From Colwellia sp. (GTDB lineage Bacteria; Pseudomonadota; Gammaproteobacteria; Enterobacterales; Alteromonadaceae), in NCBI GenBank assembly GCA_013215655.1, contig JABSOX010000012.1:131557-184293 (forward strand): 52,737 nucleotides of DNA. Direction: 5' to 3'. Positions within the stretch are counted from its first letter, which is position 1. The number at the start of each line of letters is the position of its first letter. Of the stretch, positions 32,980 through 52,257 are shown in pieces. A program made the translations under genes and the position numbers. The notes beneath the pieces were generated by a model. The model worked only from the letters and a program-made list of their open reading frames with translations. It was not told the DNA's origin and did no database searches.

Positions 32980-33024
32980 TTTTACATAAGTTTTACATTG
33001 GCATGCTTTAACAACAGCTATCAT
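32980..33024 (+). promoter_or_regulatory. TTTTACA-box promoter A (esterase paralogue 1)
   Basis: TTTTACATAAGTTTTACA at 32980-32997, then 21 bp, then TATCAT at 33019-33024. The start codon is 66 bp past the repeat. The same layout occurs five more times to the right. Sequence similarity with promoter B continues about 18 bp beyond the repeat. Confidence 0.75.
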
Positions 33025-33063
33025 ATCAGCTCATTTGTTCATTCACCGAAAAAGGCGCACACC

Positions 33064-34245
33064 ATGCGAACGATTTATTTAACCATAATAATGTCTATTA
33101 TATTATTATCTTTTTCCAATAATTTATTGGCACAGGAACAAGCCGTTAAGGGTAATGGAAAAGCAATACAATACGATTTTGGTCACCAATATCAAGTACA
33201 TTCGAAAATTCTAGGGGAAGATCGAAAATTACTGATATACGTACCTGAGGAATACCAAAAATCAGCTGACAAATTCCCTGTTGTCTACCTGTTAGAAGGC
33301 CAATTACACTATAAACATGCCACCATCGCCATAGAGAAAGTACAAAAAACTGGTTGGATGCCGGCCAGTATTATTGTTGCAATTACCGATAACAAAGGCA
33401 CAAATTCACGTGATTATGGTAAAGAAAGTGACAATTTTTTACGCTTTATCAATGAAGAAGTTCAAGCTTTTGTCGCCAAAAAATTTAGAGTAAATAGTTA
33501 TAAAACAATTTTTGGTCATGGCGCGGCTGGAACATTTTTGTTAGAAACATTCATCAAAGATCCTGATGGATTTGAAAATTATATAGTAGCAAATCCATTT
33601 GGTTTGCGGAAATCCATACTCTCTCGATTTGAAAACTTACTGGATAAAAACAAAACACTCAATCAATCATTGTATTTCTCCGTGGGCACCGTGCTTGATA
33701 ATGGCTCTTACAATGTAGAACCAGTAGAAGAACTTGCTGAATTACTTAAAAACAAAGCGCCACAAAGTTTACAGTGGACGTATGAATACTTACCTCTACA
33801 TGGCACCTTTGGTTCAGCGAATGTGACTTTATACAATGGCCTTTCAAAGAACTTTACTTTTTATCAAGGCCCTTTTATTGGTAGTTATCAGGAGTTTATC
33901 GACGGTAATAAAATGGCAGGTGTTGAAGCATACTTTCGAGAACGCGGTGAAAAGTATGATATCTCTGACGAGGTAACTATGGGGACATTTATGGGGCTGG
34001 GTTTTATGTTACTTGATAGCGGTCATCCGAAAGTAGCGGCTGAAATACTTCTAGACGCTATTAGGGATCGTTTTCCAGAGTCGGCACAGCTTTATAGAGT
34101 ATTAGGCCGTGCTTATATGAAAATGGAAGACAAAGAAAAAACCATTAAGGCGTATGAAACAATGGTATTGAAAGCTAAGCAACAAAAACACCCACAACTT
34201 GAGCGTTTTGAAAATGCTCTTAAGTGGGTAAAGAAAAAGCTATAA
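33064..34245 (+). CDS. Secreted esterase-D-like alpha/beta hydrolase with TPR tail; nucleophile Ser replaced by Gly
   Basis: A 393-residue protein. ATG 33064 is chosen because it gives a clean signal peptide (MRTIYLTIIMSIILLSFSNNLLAQ) and sits 66 bp past the promoter repeat. An upstream in-frame ATG at 32914 would run through that promoter. Residues about 35-285 form a putative-esterase (PF00756-type) domain: ILGEDRKLLIYVPEEY, FPVVYLLEGQLHY, SRDYGKESDNFLRFINEEV. The nucleophile elbow reads GHGAAG, with Gly153 where the paralogue at 42181 has Ser153 (GHSFAG). The His region (PLHGTFGS) remains. The C-terminal 90 residues are TPR-like. It is probably a periplasmic or outer-membrane non-catalytic binding protein, or uses altered chemistry. 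Confidence 0.85.
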   Translation: MRTIYLTIIMSIILLSFSNNLLAQEQAVKGNGKAIQYDFGHQYQVHSKILGEDRKLLIYVPEEYQKSADKFPVVYLLEGQLHYKHATIAIEKVQKTGWMPASIIVAITDNKGTNSRDYGKESDNFLRFINEEVQAFVAKKFRVNSYKTIFGHGAAGTFLLETFIKDPDGFENYIVANPFGLRKSILSRFENLLDKNKTLNQSLYFSVGTVLDNGSYNVEPVEELAELLKNKAPQSLQWTYEYLPLHGTFGSANVTLYNGLSKNFTFYQGPFIGSYQEFIDGNKMAGVEAYFRERGEKYDISDEVTMGTFMGLGFMLLDSGHPKVAAEILLDAIRDRFPESAQLYRVLGRAYMKMEDKEKTIKAYETMVLKAKQQKHPQLERFENALKWVKKKL

Positions 34246-34272
34246 GCGAAATGACACTACCGAAAACAGTAC

Positions 34273-34311
34273 ATTTCCTGAAGTTTACTTTCTCATTAAA
34301 CTTCAGGAAAT
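34273..34311 (+). terminator. Terminator after esterase paralogue 1
   Basis: A 15-bp perfect inverted repeat (ATTTCCTGAAGTTTA and its complement) with a 9-nt loop, 28 bp after the stop codon. It separates this transcript from the methyltransferase gene. Confidence 0.7.
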
Positions 34312-34361
34312 ACTCTTCAAAACTGTACCATTCATGAATTAAAATACTCTTTGGAAGCTTT

Positions 34362-35255
34362 ATGAATAAATCAATCTTACCTTTGGCGATAGCAACGACT
34401 TTGCTCTTTACTGCCTATAATGTTCAATCACATGATGCACATACTAAAAAACAGTCAGCGCAGCATTCGGCTCAATCACTATCGATGATTCTTGATAGCA
34501 GACCAACTAAAGCTAAAGCACGATATGATGCTCGTCATCCTGCACAGACTATGGAGTTTTTTGGCATTAATCCTGGGATGACTGTAGTTGAAGCATTCCC
34601 TAGTAATGGGGGTTGGTATAGCAAAATATTGCTCCCTTACTTAGGTAAACAAGGAATGTTGATCGGTGTTAATTATGCGTTTGATATGTGGGCTAAATTT
34701 GATTGGATGACCGAAAAAAGATTATCAAAAAATAAAACGTGGGTAAAAGACTGGACCAGTAGAGCACTAGAATGGCATAACGATAATAGTGCAAAGGTTA
34801 GCGCATTTCAGTTCGGCTCTATGCCCAAAGAAATTAACGGCAGCGCCGATGCTGTTGTATTTATTCGAGCCTTACATAATTTAGCCGTTTTTGAGAATGA
34901 TGGCGGTTACTTAACCGCTGCGCTAAAAGATGCCTACCAAGCGCTTAAACCGGGAGGCATTGTTGGTATTGTACAACATATGGCTCCCGAAACGGCATCT
35001 GACGAATGGGCAAATGGCGACAAGGGTTATTTAAAGAAGTCATTCGTCATTTCAAAAATGGAAGCGGCGGGATTTGAATATATGGATTCTAGCGATATCA
35101 ATATTAATCCTAAAGACAAACCAAGCGAAAGTGACGGTGTATGGCGTTTGCCACCGTCATTTGCAACCAGCAAGGATAAACCTGAGTTGAAAAAAGAGTA
35201 TATAGCAGTAGGAGAGTCCACTCGTATGACACTAAGGTTTAGGAAAAAAAAGTAA
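34362..35255 (+). CDS. Exported class I SAM-methyltransferase-fold protein
   Basis: A 297-residue protein with a signal peptide (about residues 1-23, NVQSHDAH) and a Rossmann methyltransferase fold of the COG4798 predicted-methyltransferase type. It has MEFFGINPGMTVVEAFPSNGGWYSKIL (motif I region), VVFIRALHNLAVF, LKPGGIVGIVQHM, and a C-terminal RLPPSFATSKDKPE. Export of a SAM-fold protein is odd because SAM is not known to be available in the periplasm, so the domain may bind another ligand. There is no TTTTACA box immediately upstream; it has its own leader of about 50 bp after the preceding terminator. Confidence 0.8.
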   Translation: MNKSILPLAIATTLLFTAYNVQSHDAHTKKQSAQHSAQSLSMILDSRPTKAKARYDARHPAQTMEFFGINPGMTVVEAFPSNGGWYSKILLPYLGKQGMLIGVNYAFDMWAKFDWMTEKRLSKNKTWVKDWTSRALEWHNDNSAKVSAFQFGSMPKEINGSADAVVFIRALHNLAVFENDGGYLTAALKDAYQALKPGGIVGIVQHMAPETASDEWANGDKGYLKKSFVISKMEAAGFEYMDSSDININPKDKPSESDGVWRLPPSFATSKDKPELKKEYIAVGESTRMTLRFRKKK

Positions 35256-35270
35256 ACTTAATAGCTGAAT

Positions 35271-35311
35271 ACTGAGTCAACAAAAGGCTAGCTGCTTATT
35301 GTTGACTTAGT
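35271..35311 (+). terminator. Terminator after the methyltransferase-like gene
   Basis: ACTGAGTCAACAA pairs with TTGTTGACTTAGT (one G-U wobble), followed by TTTTG. Confidence 0.75.
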
Positions 35312-35406
35312 TTTGTCCTAGTGCTTTCTTAGTGACCATGGCACGGGCACGAAAGAAAACAAAGATCTTTTAGGGTTTATCGAACATAACACTTTGCTAA
35401 ATCCAC

Positions 35407-35451
35407 TTTTACATAAGTTTTACATTGGCCTGTTTTAGCAACTGTTACAGT
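35407..35451 (+). promoter_or_regulatory. TTTTACA-box promoter B (M2-like protein)
   Basis: TTTTACATAAGTTTTACA at 35407-35424, 21-bp spacer, TACAGT at 35446-35451. The start codon is 61 bp past the repeat. It is nearly identical to promoter A in the repeat and the first part of the spacer. Confidence 0.75.
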
Positions 35452-35485
35452 TTATCCATAGAACGAAATACCAACAGGAATCTTC

Positions 35486-37324
35486 ATGAATAAACTAACA
35501 CATGCAGCTAAACATACTCTTTTAGTAAGTAGTTTAGCAGTTTTTCCCTTTGCAAATGCAGCTAAAAACACTTCCTCGGTAACCATTAATAAAGCTACAG
35601 CATTTATTGAAGCTGCTGATATTGCACAAAAAGAACTTGTTGATACCGGAAATCTTGCCTGGTATATCAAAGATCGATTTAGGACGTTAGATACAGAAAA
35701 TCACATTGCTAATCTAATTGTGCAAGGAAAAAGATTAGATTTAAAATTAGGTTATCAAGCAAATCAATATAAAAACCTAAACCTTAATAAAGATTTAACT
35801 CGACGCCTTAATGGCATCCTTTCCGCTGCATATATTTACCCAAGTCACCCTCATCCACAAAATAAAAAAAAAGTAACAATACTTAAAAAAATCACCCGTG
35901 ATTTAGCAAAAAAACAAGCTGACAACACGGCTTGTATTGATGGGGATTCAGTAGAGAAAGAATGCTTAAATGCTCAACAACTAGCTAAAAAAATGACCAA
36001 CAGTACCGACGAAAATGAGTTGAAAGTACTGTGGACAAATTGGCACAACAACTTAACACCGCTTAAGTCTATTTATCAGCAGCAAGTACAACTCAATAAT
36101 GAAGGTGCCCAACGTTTTGGCTTCTCAAATAGAGCAGAAATGCAACTTAGCCAATTTGAAATGCCAGTTGATGACTTCATTAATGAACTTGATCAGGCAT
36201 GGGCAGACGTAAAACCTTTGTATGATTCGTTACTACTTCATGTACGCAACAAACTTATCGAAAAATACGGAGCTGATGTGGTAAAACCCAATCAACCGAT
36301 CCCTGCTCATCTGCTTGGCAGCCTAAATGTAAATAATCTCAGCAATCTGTATGAGCTAGTGAAACCAGAGGGAGCAGTAAAGGATCGTGGTTACAACATT
36401 GAGGAAAAGTTAAAAGAGTATCCAGAATTGGATACACCAGCAATGCTACACGGTCTTGAAAAATACATAATGTCAATGGGCTTTACGCCTTTTAAAAAAT
36501 CTCTTTACGAATTTTCGCAATTTACCAAACCAACCTCACATGATGCTTCTTGTGATCCTAGTGCATGGTGGTTGCCAGAAAACGAAGAAGCAAGAGTAGG
36601 TGGTTGTTGGGAAATCAATGAAGATACCTTCATGCGCTTTAATACGACATCATTGTTAACACCCATGTATTTTCGTGCCGCACACGCCGAACAACCTGGA
36701 CATTATAGTATATGGCCAGCTGGAACTTTTAGAGGAACCAATCGAGCATTTCAATATGCTTATACACCGGATTATTTACAATCAATAGGCATGTTAGACG
36801 AAATTCCTGATGAATCAGCTGACTTGGGCTATTTAATGCAGTTGGCTCTTAATACCGTTGCAAGTATGCCTTATAAACTTGCTGTCAATAAATGGCAAAA
36901 AGAAATTGCCTCTGGTGAAATATCCCCGAAAGAATACAACAATAGATGGTGGCAATTACGTGAACATTATCAAGGAATAACAGCGCCTGTTGATAGAGAC
37001 AATAATGCCTTTGATGCCGGCGCCATCCCGGCAATTATTCATAATCAAAACCAAGCTGGTAGTTTCATCGGTGAAATTTTAGGATTTCAATTTTATCAAT
37101 CTTTATGTGAAGCTGCAGGCAACAAAAACACACTATCTCGTTGTTCTTTTTACGGTTCAAAAGACGTTGGTAAAAAGCTGCAAGCAATGTTTGAATTAGG
37201 AAATAGTCAACCATGGTTTGAAGTGATGTCAGAAGTTACAGGGCAAACAAAACTTGATGGCTCTGCTATCACTAATTACTTCAAAACCTTGCAAAAATAT
37301 CTAGACCAGCAAAATGAGAATTAA
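35486..37324 (+). CDS. Secreted M2 (ACE-like) family protein lacking zinc ligands
   Basis: A 612-residue protein with a signal peptide (about 1-25, FPFANAA) and the whole M2 peptidyl-dipeptidase fold. Family blocks include LGSLNVNNLSNLYELV, SIGMLDEIPDESADLGYLMQLALNTVASMPY, NRWWQLREHYQGITAPV, FQFYQSLCEAAG, LSRCSFYGSKDVGKKLQ and a YFKTLQKYL C-terminus. At the HExxH position, aligned by the following Y395-F396 and AEQP, the sequence reads TSLLT (388-392). The third-ligand segment FHEAxGD reads FRGTNRA (415-421). All zinc ligands are thus missing, which predicts a pseudopeptidase, perhaps a peptide-binding protein. AGGA lies 7 bp before the ATG. Confidence 0.88.
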   Translation: MNKLTHAAKHTLLVSSLAVFPFANAAKNTSSVTINKATAFIEAADIAQKELVDTGNLAWYIKDRFRTLDTENHIANLIVQGKRLDLKLGYQANQYKNLNLNKDLTRRLNGILSAAYIYPSHPHPQNKKKVTILKKITRDLAKKQADNTACIDGDSVEKECLNAQQLAKKMTNSTDENELKVLWTNWHNNLTPLKSIYQQQVQLNNEGAQRFGFSNRAEMQLSQFEMPVDDFINELDQAWADVKPLYDSLLLHVRNKLIEKYGADVVKPNQPIPAHLLGSLNVNNLSNLYELVKPEGAVKDRGYNIEEKLKEYPELDTPAMLHGLEKYIMSMGFTPFKKSLYEFSQFTKPTSHDASCDPSAWWLPENEEARVGGCWEINEDTFMRFNTTSLLTPMYFRAAHAEQPGHYSIWPAGTFRGTNRAFQYAYTPDYLQSIGMLDEIPDESADLGYLMQLALNTVASMPYKLAVNKWQKEIASGEISPKEYNNRWWQLREHYQGITAPVDRDNNAFDAGAIPAIIHNQNQAGSFIGEILGFQFYQSLCEAAGNKNTLSRCSFYGSKDVGKKLQAMFELGNSQPWFEVMSEVTGQTKLDGSAITNYFKTLQKYLDQQNEN

Positions 37325-37460
37325 ACTTGCAGTTTAAATTCATCAATAAAGACATCAATGCCTAATAAGCGTTGGGGGTCTTTACAGCAACTGTAAGTAG
37401 CAGATGAAGCCTATCTGCCATTACCTTTATAAATTGCTAATATATAATGAATGGAAATAC

Positions 37461-38177
37461 ATGATCATGATAAAGAGCTCTCTAATGACACATAAACCTA
37501 AATTACTGATTGTTGAAGACGAAGCCGCAATTTTAAGAGGCTTAACTGACTTATTTACACTGCAAGGATTTTATGTTGAAAGTGAGCAAGACGGCCAAAA
37601 AGGGTTAGAAACTGCATTAGCAGGTAAGTTTGACTGCATATTATTGGATGTAATGCTGCCATCACTAGATGGCTTTAGTATCTGTAATAAAATTCGCGAA
37701 GTTTCACGTGAACAAGCCATTATCATGTTAACCGCAAAAAGCTCTGAAGAAGATATTATTACCGGCCTCACCTTAGGTGCAGACGACTACATAGCCAAAC
37801 CTTTTTCAGTAAAGGAACTGCTATTACGTGTAAAAACGATATTACGCCGTACTGGTTTTAATGAAAATATTAAGACCTTAACCTTAGGTGAAAACATTAC
37901 TATTGATTGCGTCCACCTCACAGGGCAAGTTAATGGCAAAGAACAGCTATTTACCCGACGAGAAGTTGATATTCTAAGCTATTTGAATAAAAATCAACGC
38001 CCTATTCCACGTAGCGAATTATTGGCACAAATATGGGGGTACAATGACCCCAGCGAAATAGATACCCGAACAGTTGATATTCATATCGCTAAACTGAGAA
38101 AAAAAATTGAGCATAAAGCTAGCGACCCCAAATTATTGGTTACCTATAGAGGTGAAGGTTATAAATTGTGTTTGTAA
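37461..38177 (+). CDS. OmpR-family response regulator
   Basis: About 238 residues. The receiver has LLIVEDEAAILRG, phospho-Asp in CILLDVMLPSLDG, MLTAKS and YIAKPFSVKELLLRV. The C-terminal winged helix has LFTRREVDILSYLNKNQRPIPRSELLAQIWGY, DTRTVDIHIAKLRKKIE and TYRGEGYKL. ATG 37461 has GGA 6 bp upstream; an ATG at 37485 (MTHKPKLLIVEDE) is equally plausible, and a farther ATG at 37404 is unlikely. OmpR-type proteins bind direct repeats of about 11-bp period, exactly the spacing of the TTTTACA boxes around it. It is the leading candidate regulator of that set, with the histidine kinase just downstream. Confidence 0.93.
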   Translation: MIMIKSSLMTHKPKLLIVEDEAAILRGLTDLFTLQGFYVESEQDGQKGLETALAGKFDCILLDVMLPSLDGFSICNKIREVSREQAIIMLTAKSSEEDIITGLTLGADDYIAKPFSVKELLLRVKTILRRTGFNENIKTLTLGENITIDCVHLTGQVNGKEQLFTRREVDILSYLNKNQRPIPRSELLAQIWGYNDPSEIDTRTVDIHIAKLRKKIEHKASDPKLLVTYRGEGYKLCL

Positions 38178-38358
38178 AGGCTATTGTTAATTTTCAACCT
38201 AATATCGTTAAAAACAATTAAAGTAGAATAACTACATCGCATTATTTTTGCCTTGTTATCTTAAAAATTAACCTATAGCAGAAGATAAAATGAAAGTTCA
38301 ACAGACTCTAGTAATAAAGACAGACATAATTATTCATAAAGTTAGGAAGTAACTCACT

Positions 38359-40149
38359 TTGGTGCTTAATAAAAATTTAAATACTCATCAACAAATACTA
38401 CGCTTTCGTAAAATTGTTTTTATTTTTTTCATTTGTTTAACTTTGCCGTTAGCTATGGTTGTTTATTATGGTTTTCAAAAATTTGAAAATGAAATGCTTT
38501 TTCAATATCGTTGGAAATCTGCAAATGTCGTTACACAAATTAATAAAGTAATAACCAAACGCATAACAAAAGAACAACAGCGTTCACCACTTGATTATTA
38601 TTATTATCGAAATATTGAAAATGAAGAATCACAAAACATTTCGCCTTTGTCTTATCAACGACAGCCACATTACCAAACTGATTTATTTGGTCTTGTCGGC
38701 TTTTTTAATATCGTCGACAAAAAGAAACTTAATACCCCCATATTACCTTTCACTCAAAAAAGAGGAATAATCAGAACAGATCAAACACCCACAAACCTGC
38801 AACTAAATAGCAACGACATCGACCGTCGTATAACAAAAATAAAACAGTTAAAAAAAATATTAGGTGAAAATGGTTTTCTGCAAACAGGGAATAAAAATAA
38901 TCATTTCTCTCAAAGAGAGTTATCCACATCTACTCAACCAATAGAAACACAAGTCGGTAGTTTTAAGTTGATGATAACTAAAAACCAGCAGTTTGTTTTT
39001 TATCGCAATGCATCCATTAATCAACAGATATCAGTACAAGGTTTTGTTGTTAATAGAAAAGAATTTCTTGAGCAGTTGTTCAGTGACTACATCAGGTTTG
39101 CTCGCTATGATAATGCGGTGCAAGTACAAATGGTCAACACATTAAATAAACCTGAGCTGCAATATTATCAATACAATATCAATGAAGAAGGAGATGCGGG
39201 CGTAAAAATATCGACAGAAGAAAATAGAGATTTACTATCCCAATCTTTATTTAAAGGAGAATTAATAGAACCATTTGCCAATATCAGTTTACAATTTACC
39301 ACTGGGGATCTGCCATTAGGTCCCGCTACTAGCTTTGTATTTATATTTATTGTGGTACTTAGTTTAGTCATTGTTGCTGGCAGTATTGGTTTTTACTGGT
39401 TAGGCGTAAAACAAATTGCCCTTGCCGAACAGCGCATGAATTTTGTATCTGCTGTTAGCCATGAGCTTAAAACACCATTAACGTCTATTTTAATGTACTC
39501 TGAAATGCTCAAATCAGGCATGGTGCCAGACCAAAAAAATCAGCAGGACTACCACCACTTTATTTTTGATGAAAGTGAACGACTCTCTCGTTTAATCAAT
39601 AACGTTTTACAGTTATCTAACCTCAGCCGCAATCAAGAAGTGGTAACACCTGAGTATGTGAGTATTGATGTTTTAAAAGATATTATTCAATCAAAAGTAT
39701 CAACGTTAATAGCCAAAAATAATTTTCAACTTAATTTTATTGTTGATAAAAATAGTTCGTCAGATATACAAGCTTTTATAGACCTTGACGCTTTTGCACA
39801 AATCATCATCAATCTAATAGACAATTCAGTTAAATTTTACAACGCCGCAAAGATTAACGAGCCACAACGACAAAAAATTGATATTAGCTTTGCCCACCAT
39901 AAAAACGCTAAAGATAAACTTAACTTTTCTATTCGAGATTATGGTCCGGGTATCTCTCATTCACAGCATGAGAAAATATTTGACCTCTTCTATCGTTGCG
40001 GCAATGAAATGACCCGTACCACCTCAGGCACAGGTATCGGCCTAGCACTTGTACATCAACTTGTTATCGCACAAGGCGGAGAGATAAATGTTACTCGTCA
40101 TCAACAAGGTGTTTCTTTTGATCTTAGCTTCTCTATTCTTCAAAGCTAA
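38359..40149 (+). CDS. Sensor histidine kinase, probable partner of the adjacent OmpR-type regulator
   Basis: A 596-residue inner-membrane kinase with a non-ATG start: TTG 38359, or GTG 38362 immediately after it (GGAAG upstream). TM1 is at about 15-38. An extracytoplasmic sensor of about 280 residues has no family I recognise. TM2 is at about 322-347. HisKA follows directly (FVSAVSHELKTPLTSILMYSEML), with no obvious HAMP. The ATPase domain has NLIDNSVKFYN, IRDYGPGIS and GTGIGLALVHQL. It lies 181 bp after the regulator gene in the same direction; the gap shows no clear terminator. Pairing with the regulator is inferred from position. Confidence 0.9.
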   Translation: MVLNKNLNTHQQILRFRKIVFIFFICLTLPLAMVVYYGFQKFENEMLFQYRWKSANVVTQINKVITKRITKEQQRSPLDYYYYRNIENEESQNISPLSYQRQPHYQTDLFGLVGFFNIVDKKKLNTPILPFTQKRGIIRTDQTPTNLQLNSNDIDRRITKIKQLKKILGENGFLQTGNKNNHFSQRELSTSTQPIETQVGSFKLMITKNQQFVFYRNASINQQISVQGFVVNRKEFLEQLFSDYIRFARYDNAVQVQMVNTLNKPELQYYQYNINEEGDAGVKISTEENRDLLSQSLFKGELIEPFANISLQFTTGDLPLGPATSFVFIFIVVLSLVIVAGSIGFYWLGVKQIALAEQRMNFVSAVSHELKTPLTSILMYSEMLKSGMVPDQKNQQDYHHFIFDESERLSRLINNVLQLSNLSRNQEVVTPEYVSIDVLKDIIQSKVSTLIAKNNFQLNFIVDKNSSSDIQAFIDLDAFAQIIINLIDNSVKFYNAAKINEPQRQKIDISFAHHKNAKDKLNFSIRDYGPGISHSQHEKIFDLFYRCGNEMTRTTSGTGIGLALVHQLVIAQGGEINVTRHQQGVSFDLSFSILQS

Positions 40150-40179: not shown

Positions 40180-40224
40180 TTTTACAAAAGTTTTACAGTA
40201 CCTCTTCCTTTACCCCTCTATTAT
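40180..40224 (+). promoter_or_regulatory. TTTTACA-box promoter C (SRPBCC protein)
   Basis: TTTTACAAAAGTTTTACA at 40180-40197, 21-bp spacer, a strong TATTAT at 40219-40224. The start codon is 65 bp past the repeat. Confidence 0.78.
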
Positions 40225-40262: not shown

Positions 40263-40790
40263 ATGAATAAATTTAGTTTATTAAAACTAACAATACTCAC
40301 CAGTACTCTTGCAGTAATAACTAACTTCGCTGTTCAAGCTGAAGTCACTGAACAATCAGCTAACAGTTTTACTGTAAAACATAGTTTTTTATCCAACAAA
40401 AACACCTCAACAGCGCGTCATGAATTTGGACATGTCGGACGCTGGTGGACATCAGAGTTTACTCAGTCGGGTAAAGGTCACAATATGTTTTTTGACGGAA
40501 AAGGCATGCATGAAAGAATGCCTAATGGCAAAACCATAACTCATCTCTCAAAAGTTGAAAAAGAAAATAACCAATGGGTTTGGCTTGGTGCTCTGGGCAA
40601 ATTAAGAAATGAAGATGCGAAAGGAAAAATGAAAATAAGTATTAAAGAGCAGCATCATCATACAAAAGTCACCATGGAATATACCGTGACAAGTGACTCA
40701 CTCGTTTCAAACAAAAATTGGCCAAAATATATCGATAAGATGTTAGCTGCTCAAATGAACAGCCTAAAAAGTTCTTTAAACAAGAGATAG
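40263..40790 (+). CDS. Secreted SRPBCC (START-like) domain protein
   Basis: A 175-residue protein. ATG 40263 is preceded by AAAGGAAG and gives a signal peptide (MNKFSLLKLTILTSTLAVITNFAVQA); an in-frame ATG at 40236 lies upstream of the ribosome site. The mature part resembles SRPBCC-family proteins with a hydrophobic-ligand cavity: GRWWTSEFTQSGKGHNMFFD, ERMPNGKTITHLSKVE, WLGALGKL, and the antiparallel strand pair MKISIKEQ/TKVTMEYTVTSD. Most SRPBCC proteins are cytoplasmic, so export is notable. It is transcribed from box C right after the two-component genes. Ligand unknown. Confidence 0.72.
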   Translation: MNKFSLLKLTILTSTLAVITNFAVQAEVTEQSANSFTVKHSFLSNKNTSTARHEFGHVGRWWTSEFTQSGKGHNMFFDGKGMHERMPNGKTITHLSKVEKENNQWVWLGALGKLRNEDAKGKMKISIKEQHHHTKVTMEYTVTSDSLVSNKNWPKYIDKMLAAQMNSLKSSLNKR

Positions 40791-42020: not shown

Positions 42021-42065
42021 TTTTACAAAAGTTTTACAATCCATACCATATTATTCCTCTAAAAT
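42021..42065 (+). promoter_or_regulatory. TTTTACA-box promoter D (esterase paralogue 2)
   Basis: TTTTACAAAAGTTTTACA at 42021-42038, 21-bp spacer, TAAAAT at 42060-42065. The leader to the start codon is longer here (142 bp past the repeat). Confidence 0.75.
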
Positions 42066-42180: not shown

Positions 42181-43365
42181 ATGAAATATGTAACTCCCCT
42201 GCTACTGATCCTATCTTTAACTATATCGACATCATTAACAGCCAAAACTATTAAAAATAAAGCCTCTGAATCCCAAAGTAAACAACTAACAATTTCATTG
42301 GGTGAAAGTATTAAATTCCATTCTGAAGCCTTGGGAGAAGATAGAGAAATAATAGTACACGTTCCTGATGGTTATGAAGATTCAAATATTCAATATCCAG
42401 TTCTTTACGTATTAGATGGAGAAGAGTTTTTAGCCTTAGTTACTGCAGCAGTTGACAGTATGGTTAACGAATTTATGCCAAATAGTATTATTGTTGCAAT
42501 CACCAATGCTAAAAATACTAGGTCAAGAGACCTCGGCAGAGAAAAAGACAAATTCCTTCAATTTATCAAAGAAGAAGTTATCCCTCGTACAGAAAGAAAG
42601 TACAGAACGTTACCGATCAAAATACTACTCGGACATTCCTTTGCTGGTTATTTTGTATTAAGTACTTTAGCTAGCGACCCAAAATTATTCGATGCTTATA
42701 TAGCTGCCAGTCCAATCGTTGAAATTTTCGACTCGGAATTACTTGCAAGATACGAAACATTATTAAAAGGTAATTATCTAACAGATTTATCACTTTATAT
42801 GTCGATGGGAGGCAAGGTCTCTGAAGGTAAATCTAGAATAGATGCATATAACAAACTTTCTCAATTATTTAGTGATAACGCCCCTCAAGATTTTACGTGG
42901 ACTTCGGAACTCATGTCTGACCAAACACATGGTTCTACTGTCTACCCTTCATTTTATAAAGGTTTGCAGCACACCTTTCAAGAGTTTCGTGATGTTGGTT
43001 TTATTGATTATTCTGACTATAAGAGTCGTGGAAAAATGGCAGGTCTTGTACAGTTTTATAAATCACGTTCAGAAAAATACTTTACCGATATAACCATTCC
43101 AGAATGGAACATTGCTGGCGTGGCCAAAATGCTCTTAGAAAGTGAACATAATAAAGAAGCTATAGTATTATTTAAACGAAATGTAACAAATCATCCAAAA
43201 TCCATTAGCGCCATCGTTAATTTAGCGCGCGCTTTTGAGCGTATAGGTAAAAATAACAGTGCGATAGATCTTTATGAAAACACGATTAACGCTGACATAG
43301 AGCTGTCTTTATCAGCGATAGATTACTTAAAGAAGCAAGTTTTGAGACTTAAATCGGAAAAATAA
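42181..43365 (+). CDS. Secreted esterase-D-like alpha/beta hydrolase with TPR tail (intact nucleophile)
   Basis: A 394-residue paralogue of the protein at 33064, the same length and domain order. It has a signal peptide (about 1-21, TSLTAKT), an esterase domain (ALGEDREIIVHVPDGY, YPVLYVLDGEEFLA, SRDLGREKDKFLQFIKEEV), nucleophile elbow GHSFAG with Ser153, His region QTHGSTVYPSFYKGL, and a TPR-like C-terminus (KEAIVLFKRNV, ARAFERIGKNNSAIDLYENTI). It should be an active periplasmic serine esterase. Substrate unknown; the family includes siderophore esterases and S-formylglutathione hydrolases. It is transcribed from box D with a weak ribosome site. Confidence 0.88.
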   Translation: MKYVTPLLLILSLTISTSLTAKTIKNKASESQSKQLTISLGESIKFHSEALGEDREIIVHVPDGYEDSNIQYPVLYVLDGEEFLALVTAAVDSMVNEFMPNSIIVAITNAKNTRSRDLGREKDKFLQFIKEEVIPRTERKYRTLPIKILLGHSFAGYFVLSTLASDPKLFDAYIAASPIVEIFDSELLARYETLLKGNYLTDLSLYMSMGGKVSEGKSRIDAYNKLSQLFSDNAPQDFTWTSELMSDQTHGSTVYPSFYKGLQHTFQEFRDVGFIDYSDYKSRGKMAGLVQFYKSRSEKYFTDITIPEWNIAGVAKMLLESEHNKEAIVLFKRNVTNHPKSISAIVNLARAFERIGKNNSAIDLYENTINADIELSLSAIDYLKKQVLRLKSEK

Positions 43366-45283: not shown

Positions 45284-45312
45284 CATCGTAGTTTAAGATT
45301 TCATCTTTTTAC

Positions 45313-45712: not shown

Positions 45713-45757
45713 TTTTACAAATGTTTTACAGTGTCCATGAAATGTTCTCGTTATGAT
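45713..45757 (+). promoter_or_regulatory. TTTTACA-box promoter E (no intact gene behind it)
   Basis: TTTTACAAATGTTTTACA at 45713-45730, 21-bp spacer, a strong TATGAT at 45752-45757. Every promoter feature is intact, but no signal-peptide gene follows, only a broken reading frame. Confidence 0.72.
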
Positions 45758-45853
45758 CCACTCTTACATCATTTATCTTCCCATTGATTCTTCAAGACGA
45801 AAAGGCAACATCTACACTCAACAAGGTAACGAAGCCTACGTGCCAGTTCTGCC

Positions 45854-46123
45854 ATGGGGATATTGGCACAAGATGGAAATAGCGGGAGTGGATCTATTTC
45901 CCAATCAGGTTATTACTACCAACGGGAAATAGCGTCGACTTATCATAAAGATACTGAAAATTATGATGGAACAGGAGAACAACTTGAATTTAAAGATGAT
46001 CAAGTCACAGACTATGTTCGTACACCTGCTGGCTGGAAAATGGTTGCAAAGACTTTTCTGTTAATGCTATACAAAAATCATCGCAATAGTGTTTATTGTA
46101 CAGCTCTATGTGCATCAAATTAA
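45854..46123 (+). pseudogene. Decayed ORF downstream of promoter E
   Basis: An 89-codon frame from ATG 45854 with no ribosome site, no signal peptide and a stop at 45827 just upstream. Residues about 28-67 (YHKDTENYDGTGEQLEFKDDQVTDYVRTPAGWKMVAKTF) read like the end of a folded domain, perhaps SnoaL/DUF4440-like (weak). The tail LYKNHRNSVYCTALCASN looks random. The bases between promoter E and this ORF are open in another frame (NEAYVPVLPWGYWHK), consistent with a frameshift. Given the intact promoter, this is best read as the remnant of a once co-regulated exported protein. A genuine short gene cannot be excluded. Confidence 0.5.
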
Positions 46124-46292
46124 ATGCTCTATTCTTATGAACGTGGAGACAAACTTTGCTTAGAATACTTATTTTGACGAAAAAAAATAAAAGTTTAACT
46201 TGTAACCTTTAAATTAATGACCGCATCAAAGAATACCCTAATAATATTATCGGGGTATTCTTTAAAAATAGATAAGTTATAAAAGGAAAATA

Positions 46293-47162
46293 ATGAACAA
46301 ACTTAAATCAATTTTTATCGGTGTTTATTTAATGCTAGCGATGGCAATTAGCACCATTGGCATCTACCAAATAATTAACTCTGGATTTAGTTTGATTTGG
46401 CTTGGTGCAGCACTGATAAATCTACTAATAACGCTATTTATCGGAAGAATCATGATCTTTAAAAATGTAGCCAGAACCTCTGCTCATTTCCCCATGCTGT
46501 CGTTAATTACCGTAATTGGTCTTATTTTAGTATTTAATGATCTTTATCGTATCGGCTTTAATTCATTATCTAGCTCTGAGCAAACAGCCTTATATTTATC
46601 CATTATTAGTTTTACGATGTTTCTTTTATATAATTTTTGGTATTCAAAATTAGTACGAGTAACTAACTATAAATTACAAATAAACGAACAACTGCCCTCT
46701 TTTTATCTAACTGATATTAATTCTAAAAAAGTCAATTCTGCTGACTTTAAAGGCCAGTCAACAATATTAATATTTTTCCGTGGTAATTGGTGTCCACTCT
46801 GTATGGCGCAGATAAAAGAAATAGCAGGTTATTATCAACAACTCTCTGACTTAGGTGCAAAAATTGTACTTATTTCTCCACAACCAGAAAAAAATACTCA
46901 AGCCTTAGCCGCTAAATTTAATGTAGATTTCTACTTTATGACAGATATAAATAATGAGGCAGCTAAAAGCTTAGGCATTGAAATGACAAATGGGCTACCT
47001 ATGGGCATGGAAGTATTAGGTTACCAACAAGATACTGTACTCCCAACCGTACTTATTACCGATGAAAACGGAAAAATAATATACAGTGATTTCACCGAAA
47101 ATTACCGTATTCGTCCTGATCCAGAAGAGTTTATTAAAGTCTTAACTAAAGACAATATCTAG
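46293..47162 (+). CDS. Membrane-anchored peroxiredoxin/redoxin-like protein
   Basis: A 289-residue protein. Four hydrophobic segments within residues 5-120 form a membrane domain. A thioredoxin-fold redoxin domain follows (about 130-285): LPSFYLTDINSKKVNSADFKGQSTILIFFRGNWCPLCMAQIKEI, IVLISPQPEKNTQALAAKF, DTVLPTVLITDENGKIIYS. The active site is WCPLC, a CxxC rather than a single-Cys PxxxTxxC peroxiredoxin motif, so a thiol-disulfide role is as likely as peroxide reduction. Cis-Pro is in VLPTVLI. It has its own leader and a terminator, so it is monocistronic. Confidence 0.85.
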   Translation: MNKLKSIFIGVYLMLAMAISTIGIYQIINSGFSLIWLGAALINLLITLFIGRIMIFKNVARTSAHFPMLSLITVIGLILVFNDLYRIGFNSLSSSEQTALYLSIISFTMFLLYNFWYSKLVRVTNYKLQINEQLPSFYLTDINSKKVNSADFKGQSTILIFFRGNWCPLCMAQIKEIAGYYQQLSDLGAKIVLISPQPEKNTQALAAKFNVDFYFMTDINNEAAKSLGIEMTNGLPMGMEVLGYQQDTVLPTVLITDENGKIIYSDFTENYRIRPDPEEFIKVLTKDNI

Positions 47163-47182
47163 CAATGTTTTAATTCATTTAG

Positions 47183-47212
47183 TGAATGAACCACCACATA
47201 GCGGTTCATTCA
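47183..47212. terminator. Terminator hairpin after the redoxin gene
   Basis: TGAATGAACC and GGTTCATTCA with a 10-nt loop, 20 bp past the stop codon and between convergent genes. Confidence 0.65.
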
Positions 47213-47287
47213 TTAAATTAAAACAACAAGACGATCTTGATTAAATTGTTACAAGGTACTTCTTAATTAATCCCCTATAAAAAAGTA

Positions 47288-47929
47288 TCAATAAGCAACA
47301 GTAAAGCGCTTTCTACTGTGTTGTGTTTGCTCAGCTTCATCTAATAAAGCAATGGCAAAGTCCTCTAACGAAATAGTTGAATTACCTTGTTCATCAATCA
47401 GCAATTCGTCAATTCCTATTCGAAAACACCCAGTGCGTTCGCCAGGCATAATCATTGCGGGTGGACTTAAATAACTCCAATCAACAAGCTCATTTTCTTG
47501 ACATAGCTTATGTTGGGCTAAACATGCCAACGCGATATCGCGCCAAGCGAGAGGAACCAAATTAATATCATCAACCACTAAACTACCATTGGAGTTAGGC
47601 ACGATTAAACTTGCTGCGCCACCGACCAATAACAACCTTACTTTAGTTTGTTCTAGCCCTGACAATAGTGATTGAGTTGTTGCTACTAACTGTTCTTCTG
47701 CGCCTTGTGGTGGCCGAGTTGCACTTATGACTAAATCTTGCCCCTTACTAAACTTCACCACATCGTCGATATTGCCAACATCACCAATAACCACGTTCAC
47801 TGCCGAACTTAATTCGTTAACACGAGAGCTATTGCGTAATACAGCAGTGACCTCATGACCTCTTAATAACGCTTCATCTATAACTCTTGAACCGACATTG
47901 CCCATTGCACCAAAAACTGTAATTTTCAT
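47288..47929 (-). CDS. NAD(P)-binding (NmrA/atypical SDR-like) oxidoreductase
   Basis: A 213-residue Rossmann protein. It starts MKITVFGAMGNVGSRVIDEALLRGHEVTAVLRN, the GxxGxxG NAD(P) motif of NmrA/YwnB-type atypical SDRs. ATG 47929 with GGAG about 9 bp upstream is preferred over a 25-residue extension from 48004 that reads through the promoter region. VVIGDVGNIDDVV (adenine contact), LVISATRPPQG and LLLVGGAASL follow. It is divergent from the acetyltransferase operon across a region with paired CCTAGG palindromes, suggesting joint control. Substrate unknown. Confidence 0.85.
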   Translation of the reverse strand: MKITVFGAMGNVGSRVIDEALLRGHEVTAVLRNSSRVNELSSAVNVVIGDVGNIDDVVKFSKGQDLVISATRPPQGAEEQLVATTQSLLSGLEQTKVRLLLVGGAASLIVPNSNGSLVVDDINLVPLAWRDIALACLAQHKLCQENELVDWSYLSPPAMIMPGERTGCFRIGIDELLIDEQGNSTISLEDFAIALLDEAEQTQHSRKRFTVAY

Positions 47930-48003
47930 TTGTTGTAACTCCACTTGATATTGTTTTGCTTGATTTGATAACCGCAGTTTACAAACAAGTTTTAAGAGCA
48001 ACA

Positions 48004-48017
48004 TTAACCTAGGTTTA
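48004..48017. promoter_or_regulatory. CCTAGG palindrome, site 1
   Basis: TTAACCTAGGTTTA, an inverted copy of the site at 48100-48113, about 96 bp away centre to centre. It sits 75 bp upstream of the NAD(P)-binding protein gene. Candidate operator. Confidence 0.4.
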
Positions 48018-48099
48018 TTGTTTGCATAAAAACAATCACAACAAAAACAACTTTATTACAAAGCTTTGGGACTAAATATAGTGGCTATATCTAGGGGAC

Positions 48100-48113
48100 T
48101 AAACCTAGGTTAA
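48100..48113. promoter_or_regulatory. CCTAGG palindrome, site 2
   Basis: TAAACCTAGGTTAA, 70 bp upstream of the acetyltransferase operon. It is the exact reverse complement of site 1 over 14 bases. Confidence 0.4.
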
Positions 48114-48182
48114 GTACGTCGGAATTTTTATCAATTAAACTGCACATATCGATTAATAAAAAACGCTTAAAAGGATAATAAG

Positions 48183-48998
48183 ATGACACATTCACAAGTA
48201 GCATCGGCCTATTTAGCCGACCTACACATTGAAAAAAACGAATTAGGTGTAGATTTTTTAAATGAATTACAAAGTAAACATATTGCGCAGTATAGTTTTA
48301 ATAACCTTGCCGTAGTATTAGGACAAGAACTACCTTTAGATGCCGAATCGCTGTTTAATAAGATTGTTGAAAGACGCCGTGGTGGCTACTGCTTTGAGCA
48401 TAATAAATTAGTTTTAACTGTACTTGCTGAGCTAAATTTTGAAGTGCGTTTATTACTTGCTAAAGTTATTTACAACCGAGACATTGAAGTCGCTAGAACA
48501 CATCGAGTAACACTGCTTACTTTAGCAGGTGAAGATTACATCATTGATGCGGGTTTTGGTCATTTAGGTGCTCGTTTTCCTGTAAAAATTGAACTTGGCT
48601 TAGTACAGGATCAAGGAGATGCGAAGTATCTTATTATCAAAAATGCAAAAGGAGAGTATTGCTATCAAGTTTTTAAAGATGGCGATTTCTTTACCTTGTA
48701 TCTTTTTGATTTACATCACTATACCGAATCAGACTGTGTCTTAGGTCACTTTTACTCTCACCAACACCCCAGTGCGGCTTTTGTTAATAATTTAGTCATT
48801 TGCCGAAAGTTTTTTAATGAGATTAAATCACTACGTAATAATGAATACCACCATGTTATAAACGGAAAAACACAAACAACAACAATAACCAGCATCCAAC
48901 AATTACATCAATTGTTAACGGTCGTTTATGAATTAGATATAGACATCGCTATTTCAGAGTTCTTATTCCATAAATTTGTCATCCCAAAAGCCGCTTAA
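48183..48998 (+). CDS. Arylamine N-acetyltransferase
   Basis: A 271-residue cytoplasmic enzyme of normal NAT length that transfers acetyl from acetyl-CoA to aromatic amines or hydrazines. The Cys-His-Asp triad is visible: Cys in RRGGYCFEHNK (about residue 72), His in THRVTLL (about 109), Asp in IIDAGFG (about 124). The start has AAAGGA upstream. It is the first gene of a three-gene run with an EamA transporter and a Crp-type regulator, and divergent from an NAD(P)-binding protein. Together these suggest a xenobiotic or antibiotic-modification and export unit. Confidence 0.93.
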   Translation: MTHSQVASAYLADLHIEKNELGVDFLNELQSKHIAQYSFNNLAVVLGQELPLDAESLFNKIVERRRGGYCFEHNKLVLTVLAELNFEVRLLLAKVIYNRDIEVARTHRVTLLTLAGEDYIIDAGFGHLGARFPVKIELGLVQDQGDAKYLIIKNAKGEYCYQVFKDGDFFTLYLFDLHHYTESDCVLGHFYSHQHPSAAFVNNLVICRKFFNEIKSLRNNEYHHVINGKTQTTTITSIQQLHQLLTVVYELDIDIAISEFLFHKFVIPKAA

Positions 48999-49015
48999 GA
49001 GATGGAGGTGTAAAT

Positions 49016-49915
49016 ATGAAACAAGCATTAACAGATAACTTTATCTTACTATTTTGGGTAAGCTTGATGGCATCATCATTTGTTGTTTCAGAGCAGTTAC
49101 TTCCCTTTGCAAACCCTATTGCTAGCACCGCGCTAAGATTTATTTTGGCAACAGCGCTGATGCTACCTTTTATTTGGAAAAAGTCCTTACAACAAATAAA
49201 TTGCAAAATATTGCGTCAATATAGCCTTATTAGCTTATTCTTAGTGTTGTTTTTCTTAGGATTATTTGAAGCACTAAAAACGACAACGGCTCTGCGTACA
49301 TCGGTAATTTATACCTTGTTGCCACTACTCAGTGTTGTATTAACCTATGTGGTTTTAAAACTAGTCACACCAAATAAGCTCATAGTCGCTTTTGTTATAG
49401 GTACACTCGGTGCTCTGTGGGTATTACTGGCTTTTACTCAAGAAAAACTAGTTATTAGCCAATGGCGACTTGGCGACAGTATATTCTTAGGCGCGTGTTG
49501 TTGTTTGGCTTTACATGTAATTTTAGTAAAAAAATGGGCATCTGATGTGCCTCCAGCTCTTGGGGCATTTTATATTATGCTTTTAGGCAGCTTAATCTTA
49601 TTACCTTTTCTGATACTTTTTGGCGACTTAAATAATGTTGCCTGGCAACAAAGTGAGTTTTGGCAGACATTACTATATTTAACAATATTTACTACGATGA
49701 CGACCTTTTATTTACAACAACATCTCGTCAAAAAAGTGGGCCCAAATCGTCTATTAGCTTTTACTTATTTAATCCCAAGTTTGGTTGTTATTCCTCAGGG
49801 TTTAGCGAATATATATCAATTATACAGCGCTTTACCGGGGATAATGTTAACCTTATTGGCACTCTACCTCATTTCCCAACAAAACCCACAAATACCAGAA
49901 TCGACGCATAAATAA
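49016..49915 (+). CDS. EamA-family transporter
   Basis: A 299-residue inner-membrane protein with about ten hydrophobic segments in two EamA repeats (FANPIASTALRFILATALMLPF, TSVIYTLLPLLSVVLTYVVLK; ALGAFYIMLLGSLILLPFLI, GPNRLLAFTYLIPSLVVIPQGL). It is preceded by GGAGGTG 18 bp after the acetyltransferase stop codon, so it is in the same operon. It may export the acetylated product; this is inferred only from position. Confidence 0.9.
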   Translation: MKQALTDNFILLFWVSLMASSFVVSEQLLPFANPIASTALRFILATALMLPFIWKKSLQQINCKILRQYSLISLFLVLFFLGLFEALKTTTALRTSVIYTLLPLLSVVLTYVVLKLVTPNKLIVAFVIGTLGALWVLLAFTQEKLVISQWRLGDSIFLGACCCLALHVILVKKWASDVPPALGAFYIMLLGSLILLPFLILFGDLNNVAWQQSEFWQTLLYLTIFTTMTTFYLQQHLVKKVGPNRLLAFTYLIPSLVVIPQGLANIYQLYSALPGIMLTLLALYLISQQNPQIPESTHK

Positions 49916-49929
49916 AGAGATAAAATCAA

Positions 49930-50520
49930 ATGAGTTTACAACCTCACATGGAAGACTTTGTCCAATATTTCTCAGGGATAAACTTAAGTATCGACAGTGC
50001 AAATTTTGATAAGTTTGGCCTAAAAGCTAAGCTCAAACATTACCAAAAAGGCGAACTATTAATTACGCAAGGACAACCAGCTCCCAAGGTTTTTTTTCTG
50101 GTCAAAGGTTTTGTGCGTTACCTGAATGTTTCTGTCGAAGGCAAGGAGTTCACCCAATCATTTTCTTGTGCACCTAGCATTAGCGGTTCAACTCGGGCAA
50201 TGACTAGAAATGTTGATGCGCTGTTTAGCATTGAAGCTTTAGATGATGTTATTTGTTTAGAATTTGACTGGCAGATGTTTTTTGAGAAAATGCAATTTCA
50301 ACCCGGCTTTATGCAAGCTTATAATCGCCTTTTAGAGAATATGTTTATTAAAAAGGAAGAGCGTGAATATGCGTTTGTCCAAGATAGCGCCGAACAACGT
50401 TATTTAACCTTTTTAGACACTAACCCGCAGCTGCGCGATAAAATCCCTTTAAAGATGATCGCCTCACACATCGGCATCACCCCAATAGCGCTGAGCCGTA
50501 TTCGTAAAAAACTTCAATAA
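49930..50520 (+). CDS. Crp/Fnr-family regulator
   Basis: A 196-residue protein. A cyclic-nucleotide-binding-like domain (about 20-120: LKHYQKGELLITQGQPAPKVFFLVKGFVRYLNVSVEGKEFTQSFS) and a C-terminal HTH (about 165-195: IPLKMIASHIGITPIALSRIRKKLQ) match the Crp/Fnr regulators that often sit beside small detoxification operons. There are no Cys clusters for an Fe-S centre. It starts 14 bp after the transporter gene and is the third operon gene. It may bind the paired CCTAGG palindromes upstream of the operon, but this is unproven. Confidence 0.9.
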   Translation: MSLQPHMEDFVQYFSGINLSIDSANFDKFGLKAKLKHYQKGELLITQGQPAPKVFFLVKGFVRYLNVSVEGKEFTQSFSCAPSISGSTRAMTRNVDALFSIEALDDVICLEFDWQMFFEKMQFQPGFMQAYNRLLENMFIKKEEREYAFVQDSAEQRYLTFLDTNPQLRDKIPLKMIASHIGITPIALSRIRKKLQ

Positions 50521-50637
50521 CCACAAATAAAGAATAAATGAAATACACGCCTTGCTCTTGAATTGCTCAGGTGTCCTTAAACTGGCATATTGATGCTACT
50601 TGCTACTTGGGTATAAAACTTTTTAAAGACCGCTCTC

Positions 50638-50686
50638 ATTGTCAATGTAATGTTGACAATAATTCAATATCCCCCCTATTTATCAT
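50638..50686 (+). promoter_or_regulatory. Promoter with overlapping inverted repeat
   Basis: ATTGTCAA (50638-50645) and TTGACAAT (50653-50660) form an 8-bp dyad. The right arm contains a consensus -35 (TTGACA) followed after 18 bp by TATTTA. This is about 70-110 bp before the hydrolase gene. The layout suits a repressor site over the -35 box. Confidence 0.4.
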
Positions 50687-50751
50687 TAATTAATAAACTC
50701 TCATAATTCACCCCATCAAACAGATATTGAAATCAGACAAGTGAGGAAATG

Positions 50752-51801
50752 ATGAAAAAATTAATTAAAGCAGGTTTAAAAGCAAGCATAAGTGCTCTGG
50801 TATTATCACAAATAGCTTTTAGTACACTAGCGCATGCTGACAATACTAAAGCACCAACAGAGTTAAACACTCAAACAACATACCATACGATGAAAATTGA
50901 AGGGTTAGACATTTTCTATCGTGAAGCAGGATCTCCACAAAATCCAACACTGTTGTTATTGCATGGTTTTCCAACATCTTCACATATGTTTAGAAATTTA
51001 ATTCCTAAGCTTTCAGCAAAATATCATGTAATCGCACCTGACTATCCTGGCTACGGTAATTCTTCAATGCCGAGTATTGATGAATTTGATTATACTTTTG
51101 ATCATATGGCCAGCATTGTTGAAACCTTGCTTAAAAAGAAATCGATTTCAAAATACAGCATGTATGTAATGGACTATGGCGCACCTGTTGGCTTTAGAAT
51201 CGCGAGTGCTAATCCAGAGCAAATAGAGTCATTAATTATCCAAAATGGTAATGCCTATGATGAAGGTCTAAATAACAACTTTTGGGAGCCGATCAAGGAG
51301 TACTGGAAAGATAGAGACGCTGTCAATAAAGGCTTAGATAATGATTGGTGGAAAAATATTAAAGCTGCCTATAAACAGCCAAACATGACTAATGATTCAG
51401 CATTACGCTTTTTATTAACGAAAGGCGCAACCACTTGGCAATATACTAACGGTGTTCGTGATGTATCAAAAATTAGTTTAGATGCAATTAATGAAGATCA
51501 ACGACTGTTAGACCGAGCGGGTAACCAAGAAATTCAACTACAAATGTTTTATGACTATGGTACTAACCCTGCACAATACCCTAAATGGCAAACGTATTTC
51601 CGCAAATATCAACCAGAAACATTGATTGTTTGGGGCGATAAAGATGAAATATTTCCGTCTGCAGGTGCATACCCTTATAAAAGAGATTTGAAAAACTTAG
51701 AATTCCACCTTTTAAACACCGGCCATTTTGTACTGGAAGAAGATGGGCAACAAGTCGCACAAATTATCGAATCATTTTTAGATAAACATGTTAAAAAATA
51801 G
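50752..51801 (+). CDS. Secreted alpha/beta hydrolase of epoxide-hydrolase/haloalkane-dehalogenase type
   Basis: A 349-residue protein. Two adjacent ATGs (50749, 50752) follow GAGG; the second has better spacing. It has a signal peptide of about 30 residues (ISALVLSQIAFSTLAHADN). The core has LLLHGFPTSSHMFRNLIPKL (oxyanion loop), APDYPGYGNSSMP, and the nucleophile elbow VMDYGAPVG with Asp in place of Ser, as in epoxide hydrolases and dehalogenases. It also has VWGDKDEIFP (acid) and NTGHFVLEED (His). A periplasmic location is unusual for this group. Substrate unknown. Confidence 0.87.
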   Translation: MKKLIKAGLKASISALVLSQIAFSTLAHADNTKAPTELNTQTTYHTMKIEGLDIFYREAGSPQNPTLLLLHGFPTSSHMFRNLIPKLSAKYHVIAPDYPGYGNSSMPSIDEFDYTFDHMASIVETLLKKKSISKYSMYVMDYGAPVGFRIASANPEQIESLIIQNGNAYDEGLNNNFWEPIKEYWKDRDAVNKGLDNDWWKNIKAAYKQPNMTNDSALRFLLTKGATTWQYTNGVRDVSKISLDAINEDQRLLDRAGNQEIQLQMFYDYGTNPAQYPKWQTYFRKYQPETLIVWGDKDEIFPSAGAYPYKRDLKNLEFHLLNTGHFVLEEDGQQVAQIIESFLDKHVKK

Positions 51802-51823
51802 GATGAAATAAAGTTTACCTTCA

Positions 51824-51857
51824 CGAACGCTATAAAACATTATTTTTATAGCGTTCG
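51824..51857. terminator. Terminator hairpin after the hydrolase gene
   Basis: A 14-bp perfect stem (CGAACGCTATAAAA and its complement), 6-nt loop, 22 bp past the stop codon. On the minus strand the same bases encode the end of the GGDEF remnant. Confidence 0.75.
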
Positions 51858-52212
51858 CTCATATTTCGGCCACTCTCTTTTGCTTTATAAAGTGCACTAT
51901 CCGCTTGTTTAAACAAATCGGTACCATTAATACCATTTCGTCTAAATAGGTGATCAATGATAGCGTAGAAAAAATTAGTAAGAGCAAGGCGCTTGATTGA
52001 GTAATAACCGGCTATTAGGATTGAAAGCACAGGTTTTTAGTTCCAGACAAAACCTAAGTACTCTCATCCCTGTCAGCAACGCAGCACTTGTTAATTTTAG
52101 CAAGTAAGGGTGAGCAAATATTTAGATGAATTGGTATAAGTTCACACTCGGTTAATGACGAGACTCCAATACTCACAGTAACAATGTCAGCCATTAACCT
52201 AATGGCCGTTAC
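51830..52212 (-). pseudogene. 3' remnant of a GGDEF-domain gene, split by a MITE
   Basis: On the minus strand, IVTVSIGVSSLTECE (about 52140-52185) is the SIGVS strand of a GGDEF domain. NGTDLFKQADSALYKAKESGRN (about 51855-51927) is the ADxALYxAKxxGRN end. Between them lies a 206-bp inserted element. Removing it with one copy of its TAA duplication joins the halves in frame as TECEL-NGTDLF. Nothing upstream (catalytic GGDEF signature, sensor) is present; the fragment stops at promoter F. It is non-functional. Confidence 0.87.
51931..52136. mobile_element. 206-bp MITE-like element with 18-bp terminal inverted repeats
   Basis: The left end TACCATTTCGTCTAAATA and right end TATTTAGATGAATTGGTA are inverted copies with two mismatches. 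Both are flanked by TAA (51928-51930 and 52137-52139), a 3-bp target duplication. The element has no ORF of note and interrupts the GGDEF remnant. It must rely on a transposase elsewhere. Confidence 0.85.
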
Positions 52213-52257
52213 TTTTACAAAAGTTTTACAATGCCTGCCAAATATTCTCAGTATGCT
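52213..52257 (+). promoter_or_regulatory. TTTTACA-box promoter F (esterase paralogue 3)
   Basis: TTTTACAAAAGTTTTACA at 52213-52230, 21-bp spacer, TATGCT at 52252-52257. The start codon is 106 bp past the repeat. Confidence 0.75.

Follow-up and report, generated by a model that had tools for sequence, protein, structure and literature searches.

The window analysed here is a stretch of 52,737 nucleotides from a Colwellia sp. genome of 5,562,959 bases in 161 contigs (the stretch is from contig JABSOX010000012.1 of GCA_013215655.1, forward strand, positions 131,557 to 184,293). A 19-kb part of it contains six promoter-like sites built on a single box, TTTTACA-N4-TTTTACA, together with the genes for a two-component system, an OmpR-family response regulator and its membrane sensor kinase, which sit between the second and third sites (B and C). 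We consider it very probable, judging from sequence, that the box is the operator of this local system, which would activate a small set of exported proteins. The sites and the pair are as follows.

32980..33024, + strand: promoter A, box 32980-32997, -10-like TATCAT 33019-33024
35407..35451, + strand: promoter B, box 35407-35424, -10-like TACAGT 35446-35451
40180..40224, + strand: promoter C, box 40180-40197, -10-like TATTAT 40219-40224
42021..42065, + strand: promoter D, box 42021-42038, -10-like TAAAAT 42060-42065
45713..45757, + strand: promoter E, box 45713-45730, -10-like TATGAT 45752-45757
52213..52257, + strand: promoter F, box 52213-52230, -10-like TATGCT 52252-52257
37485..38177, + strand: OmpR-family response regulator (PF00072, PF00486; longest open reading frame from 37404), the putative box binder
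38359..40149, + strand: membrane sensor histidine kinase (PF00512, PF02518), the regulator's partner

A first-pass annotation of this DNA had reported six boxes, all on the + strand, and a scan of the window returned exact boxes at precisely those positions (32980, 35407, 40180, 42021, 45713 and 52213). Allowing up to two mismatches raised the total to nine, where shuffled sequence averaged 3.28 and 1 of 100 shuffles reached nine; the three additional matches, all with two mismatches, are on the - strand and outside the six sites. Seven exact boxes occur in the whole genome, six of them in the window's 19 kb, against 0+1 for the reversed pattern used as control (counts given as strand+strand). 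The seventh, found by the box alone, lies on contig C75 at 3159 on the - strand; the regulon that had been called local is therefore local in six of its seven sites, which surround the pair, and not in this one. The C75 box also has a TANNNT hexamer (TACCTT) at offset 21 from the box end, and the claimed -10-like hexamer exactly 21 bp after the repeat is accordingly present in 6/6 sites of the window and 7/7 of the genome, any other offset from 5 to 34 being occupied in 0 or 1 of the seven. When five, six or seven stretches were drawn at random from 32000-52600, 100,000 times for each number, no draw had a common TANNNT offset within 10-30. The full 45-bp layout is found genome-wide seven times without mismatch, never with one and ten times with two, and degenerate sites at up to three mismatches show no excess in the whole genome (75+60 vs. 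67+72 in the reversed control).

The N4 of the boxes is restricted to TAAG, AAAG or AATG. The spacers of A and B share 16 of 21 bases, every other pair at most 12 of 21, which bears out the earlier description of diverged spacers with A and B related; A/B spacers excepted, the flanks of the boxes appear unrelated. The 18-bp box has its midpoint 30 bp ahead of the -10 hexamer, which would place it near -42 were the hexamer to start at -12, in keeping with the rigid promoter layout and the OmpR-type site over the -35 region that had been proposed. A sigma-70 consensus scan picked up none of the window's six predicted hexamers, which is what a poor -35 would lead one to expect. An operator over the -35, a rigid distance to the -10 and a poor -35 are together the marks of a class II activator-dependent promoter, here recognised in sequence only. 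The pho box of PhoB consists of direct 7-bp repeats with a 4-bp spacer and takes over the -35 region; its half-site letters differ from those of the window box, and the local regulator scores 160.9 bits against the PhoB model, whose cut-off is 296.2.

All four domains of the pair (PF00072, PF00486, PF00512 and PF02518) score above their curated cut-offs, which places it among OmpR/PhoB-family systems. The segment DTRTVDIHIAK(L/I)RKKIE, which we take to be the recognition helix of the regulator, is present in 14 of 16 family rows and differs by one residue in the other two (the CpxR outgroup of this comparison was G014 alone). The sensor region was aligned across 13 of the 16 kinases (three were left out). 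The model of the sensor has a mean pLDDT of 70.3, that of the whole kinase 68.3. No match to the sensor model was found in the PDB at E 0.001 or better, and its weak structural matches include the ligand-binding domains of CqsR, TlpQ and PctA; with such weak matches, we claim no ligand.

Relatives of the pair carry the same association. Of 295 genomes of the bacterial family, 17 have homologues of the kinase (with E 1e-40 as the upper limit), at 22 places in all, and in every one of the 21 other copies a similar box precedes the regulator gene. In 14 of the 21 the repeat period is 10 bp, with 0-2 mismatches to TTTTACA-N4-TTTACA. An exact TTTTACATAAGTTTTACA precedes the regulator gene itself in genomes G061 and G095, whose regulators are 70-71% identical to that of the window; G073 and G029 have the 11-bp form at one mismatch, TTTTACAAAAGTTTTACC, in the same place, as do, at three mismatches, the second copies in G150 and G048 and, at two, G188. 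In 3000 random stretches of 250 bp from the relatives' loci, real boxes included, the 10-bp (N5) form at up to two mismatches appeared in 31, and the 11-bp (N6) form at up to one, two and three mismatches in 5, 17 and 129. A TANNNT follows the box by 20-22 bp in 21/21 family copies (20 once, 21 ten times, 22 ten times), while the best alternative run of three offsets reaches 4/21; the strict distance of 21 bp holds in this genome and loosens to 20-22 bp across species. The link of the boxes to the local regulator now goes beyond proximity, through these footprints at the regulator genes of relatives. TTTTACANAAGTTTTACA is present in 4 of the 295 genomes (the window genome, G061, G095 and G003), three of which carry the closest versions of the pair; the single site in G003 has no TANNNT at 21 and no gene of at least 90 aa starting within 900 bp downstream. 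The strict pattern TTTTACAAAAGTTTACA occurs in 0 of 19 genomes chosen without the pair. An alignment-based scan of genome contigs for relatives was swamped by generic kinase motifs: among the 80 loci kept from it only the first (37%, nearly the whole query) resembled a full-length relative, and this yielded no promoter because the contig ends inside its regulator gene.

A search for the kinase in 394 genomes of the order added 14 genomes, from other families, of which 13 were readable, the stretch fetched from G653 being without a regulator gene. Predictions were set before the flanks were read: an 11-bp box in G425, boxes according to tree position in G309, G449 and G352, and TANNNT at 20-22. 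A box was seen at 12 of the 13 readable loci, six of them weak, and G349 showed no convincing box upstream of its regulator gene. G425 (kinase identity 47%, regulator 75%) has ATTTACATAACTTTTACA, one mismatch from the 11-bp form, with TANNNT at 22; exact 10-bp boxes are present in G449 and G352, and one with 2 mismatches in G309, all three genomes falling within the 10-bp clade. The 11-bp form is the best match for G598 (exact), G614 (2 mismatches), G538, G606, G573, G530 and G546 (3 each) and G645 (4). Boxes with 3-4 mismatches, chosen as best matches, are weak singly, and their chief support is the -10 position, TANNNT standing at 20-22 in 12/12 of the other-family loci with a box.

The repeat period also follows descent. 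In a tree of 35 regulators a single branch (support 100/99; 0/500 shuffles as low) separates the 17 with 10-bp boxes from the rest, and throughout the 34 labelled rows period agrees with clade; the label of the window row comes from its targets, G349 carries none, and 8 of the 17 11-bp labels come from 3-4 mismatch matches. The window genome, G061 and G095 have one copy of each kind, and the two exact 10-bp boxes of the window genome are both on contig C101, less than 5 kb from the second regulator. Repeat period may serve as a specificity code, one clade having moved once between 11 bp and 10 bp with the recognition segment nearly unchanged, and co-resident sister copies being kept apart by one bp of spacing; we advance this tentatively and stand slightly on the doubting side of it.

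Observed here are the boxes with their layout, how rare they are in the genome, and the fact that box and regulator gene stay paired in relatives; from these we infer how the system would work. The phosphorylated regulator would occupy both TTTTACA half-sites, whose spacing is 11 bp, as a head-to-tail dimer with its centre near -42, and would compensate for the poor -35 and recruit RNA polymerase (class II activation). The set switched on would comprise esterase-family proteins, the M2-like and 175-aa proteins and the outer-membrane receptor of contig C75.

33064..34245, + strand: target A, esterase-family (PF00756, complete), signal-peptide-like start, GHGAAG replacing GHSxxG
35486..37324, + strand: target B, M2-family (PF01401), HExxH motif absent
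40263..40790, + strand: target C, 175-aa protein, signal-peptide-like start, no Pfam match
42181..43365, + strand: target D, esterase-family (PF00756, complete), GHSFAG retained
45854..46123, + strand: 89-aa open reading frame after promoter E, probably a gene remnant (three frames inspected)
52337..52737, + strand: target F, esterase-like, cut by the contig end
contig C75, start about 75 bp after the box: outer-membrane receptor with plug domain PF07715

Signal-peptide-like starts are visible by eye in six complete or cut targets (A, B, C, D, F and C75), and leaders predicted from a hexamer at -12 measure 33, 28, 32, 109 and 73 nt for A, B, C, D and F. The target classes named by the first-pass annotation fared unevenly: the M2-like protein was confirmed, two of the three esterases are complete PF00756 proteins and the third is cut, and the SRPBCC label went to the product of 40263, which has no Pfam match at E 0.01. 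The 89-aa frame behind promoter E has no match in Pfam or NCBIfam. An initial assignment of the seventh box to a place behind a phytanoyl-CoA-dioxygenase-like gene, with no target, was dropped, as the box precedes the receptor gene. Across 35 loci, the best match of this receptor is the G425 gene divergent from the regulator (40% over 382 aa); seven further loci, all with 10-bp boxes, have distant relatives of the receptor (22-26%) as the divergent neighbour, and the neighbours at other 10-bp loci are exported-looking proteins of ~490 aa, PF00756 esterases or an HlyD-type protein. The neighbours vary among loci with boxes, so that the pairing of box and regulator appears to be kept while the cargo differs. 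The system may plausibly respond to a compound from outside that is bound, broken down or transported.

Targets A and B look catalytically dead, A having no serine nucleophile (GHGAAG) and B no HExxH, and esterase relatives near the 10-bp systems (L071:4789-5973, L072:7020-8210) have GHTKAG; these proteins may bind rather than cleave. The ~490-aa relatives stand near 10-bp boxes at L080:1877-6968, L071:3129-4637, L072:3778-6799, L077:7163-8641, L108:5815-7269 and L109:6068-7522, and three copies adjoin the second copy of the system in the window genome. One of these proteins has no Pfam match and two have a weak stretch of B1 metallo-beta-lactamase type (E 2e-5 and 3e-7, far below cut-off). 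At L100 (G095:C3) a 10-bp box is followed by a 243-aa gene that looks metallo-beta-lactamase-like by eye and starts 278 bp downstream, and the same box at L106 (G061:C2) is followed by a MerR-like gene instead.

Several observations weigh against regulation of the boxes by the local pair. The window's own regulator gene, unlike those of relatives, has no box, its best upstream match showing 5 mismatches. It starts 160 bp behind the M2-like gene of promoter B, and transcription by read-through from that promoter is possible; a weak terminator-like hairpin at 37400-37418, between the two genes, disfavours simple read-through. In the 43-45 kb inspected around the orthologous pair of G061 and G095, no homologue of the window's esterases, M2 or 40263 proteins was found. 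The exact 45-bp layout with a free N4 is found in 4/295 genomes, namely the window genome and, as single sites, G273, G044 and G012; G061 and G095 fall outside this set because their TATAGT begins at 22. A looser pattern, TTTTACANAAN{1,2}TTTACA, matches 9/17 genomes with the pair but also 6/19 chosen without it, three of the six pair-less matches adjoining CpxR-like genes. Lastly, four 10-bp boxes that do not precede a regulator gene point away from the adjacent hydrolase-like gene.

Another candidate regulator is CpxR, whose site the box had been said to resemble. The consensus given in PMC4846824 is GTAAA-N5-GTAAA; the half-sites are of one type, but the window boxes read GTAAA-N6-GTAAA, and it is the 10-bp sister boxes that fit the consensus. 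The local regulator scores 113.8 bits against the curated CpxR model (113.7 in the genome search; cut-off 341), and the genome's best CpxR-like gene scores 239 bits. This gene has a different box, CTTTACACAACCTTTACA, between itself and its divergent neighbour, departing from the window box in one half-site and the spacer; the CpxR-like genes of G061, G095, G013 and G124 have TTTTACATAACCTTTACA alongside and that of G014 has TTTTACACAAGCTTTACA (CpxR and CpxP names are given by resemblance and position). A CpxR site is not supported, given the N6 spacing and the different box of the genome's own CpxR-like gene, and CpxR is disfavoured as the regulator of the boxes by these and by the model score. 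A genuine CpxR homologue acting on an envelope-stress regulon seems improbable to us, even with half-sites resembling GTAAA and TTTTACATAACCTTTACA, TTTTACACAAGCTTTACA and CTTTACACAACCTTTACA standing beside CpxR-like genes, since the window-type box is absent from 291/295 family genomes and tracks the local pair. The half-sites being common, cross-talk with CpxR is possible. The regulator of the second copy on C101, alone or together with the local one, is a further candidate, its predicted recognition segment and half-sites being very similar; we regard it as unlikely, at a chance a shade smaller than that given to CpxR, for both exact 10-bp boxes are near the C101 regulator, six of the seven 11-bp boxes surround the local pair, and period follows clade through the labelled rows. 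That the boxes are duplicated promoter copies kept by chance, with no common regulator, would suit the similar A/B spacers and the three targets from one family; we think this very improbable, the other flanks and spacers having diverged with box and -10 distance unchanged, and the same box preceding the regulator gene in other genomes.

Operation of the boxes by the local pair, the reading that we favour, was also set against other known systems. On the opposite strand the box reads TGTAAA-ACTTW-TGTAAA (or ACATT), and all six window boxes fit the WalR (YycF) site TGTWAH-N5-TGTWAH, as given in PMC9210968; WalR is of the OmpR family, as is the local regulator, but the latter scores 162.8 bits with a cut-off of 340, WalK is the kinase's second-best NCBIfam match at 153.1 against a cut-off of 725, and the targets found here comprise a receptor besides exported proteins of the esterase and M2 families. 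RpaB is the regulator's best NCBIfam match, yet at 191.4 bits against a cut-off of 330. Cyanobacterial HLR1 (RpaB) sites listed in PMC6331805 include TTACAATCGTTTACAA, and such sites are similar to the sister clade's 10-bp boxes, whereas the window boxes have an 11-bp period. No earlier description of this regulon or two-component system was found in the portions of the literature returned by our searches.

Elsewhere, TTTTACAAAACTTTTACA stands ~39 bp upstream of a lipoprotein-like gene, peptidyl-prolyl isomerase-like by eye, at L085 and L097 (G073 and G029). In the window itself, a second sensor/regulator pair, LytTR-like by eye, lies just upstream of the cluster (28939-30867), and positions 1-7451 hold genes that by eye are flavin-dependent halogenase-like and a TonB-dependent-receptor-like gene.

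The regulon thus appears real, small and sharply defined, belonging to an apparently uncharacterised OmpR-family two-component system, a view well supported by comparison among genomes as regards the pairing of box and regulator. It joins this family (17/295 genomes) to a probable operator and a small regulon. New here is a one-base difference in repeat period, 11 bp in the window and 10 bp in one sister clade, and the 10- and 11-bp sites, with a near-identical recognition segment and both kinds in one cell, would form a natural series in which to study how duplicated OmpR-family regulators separate their targets.

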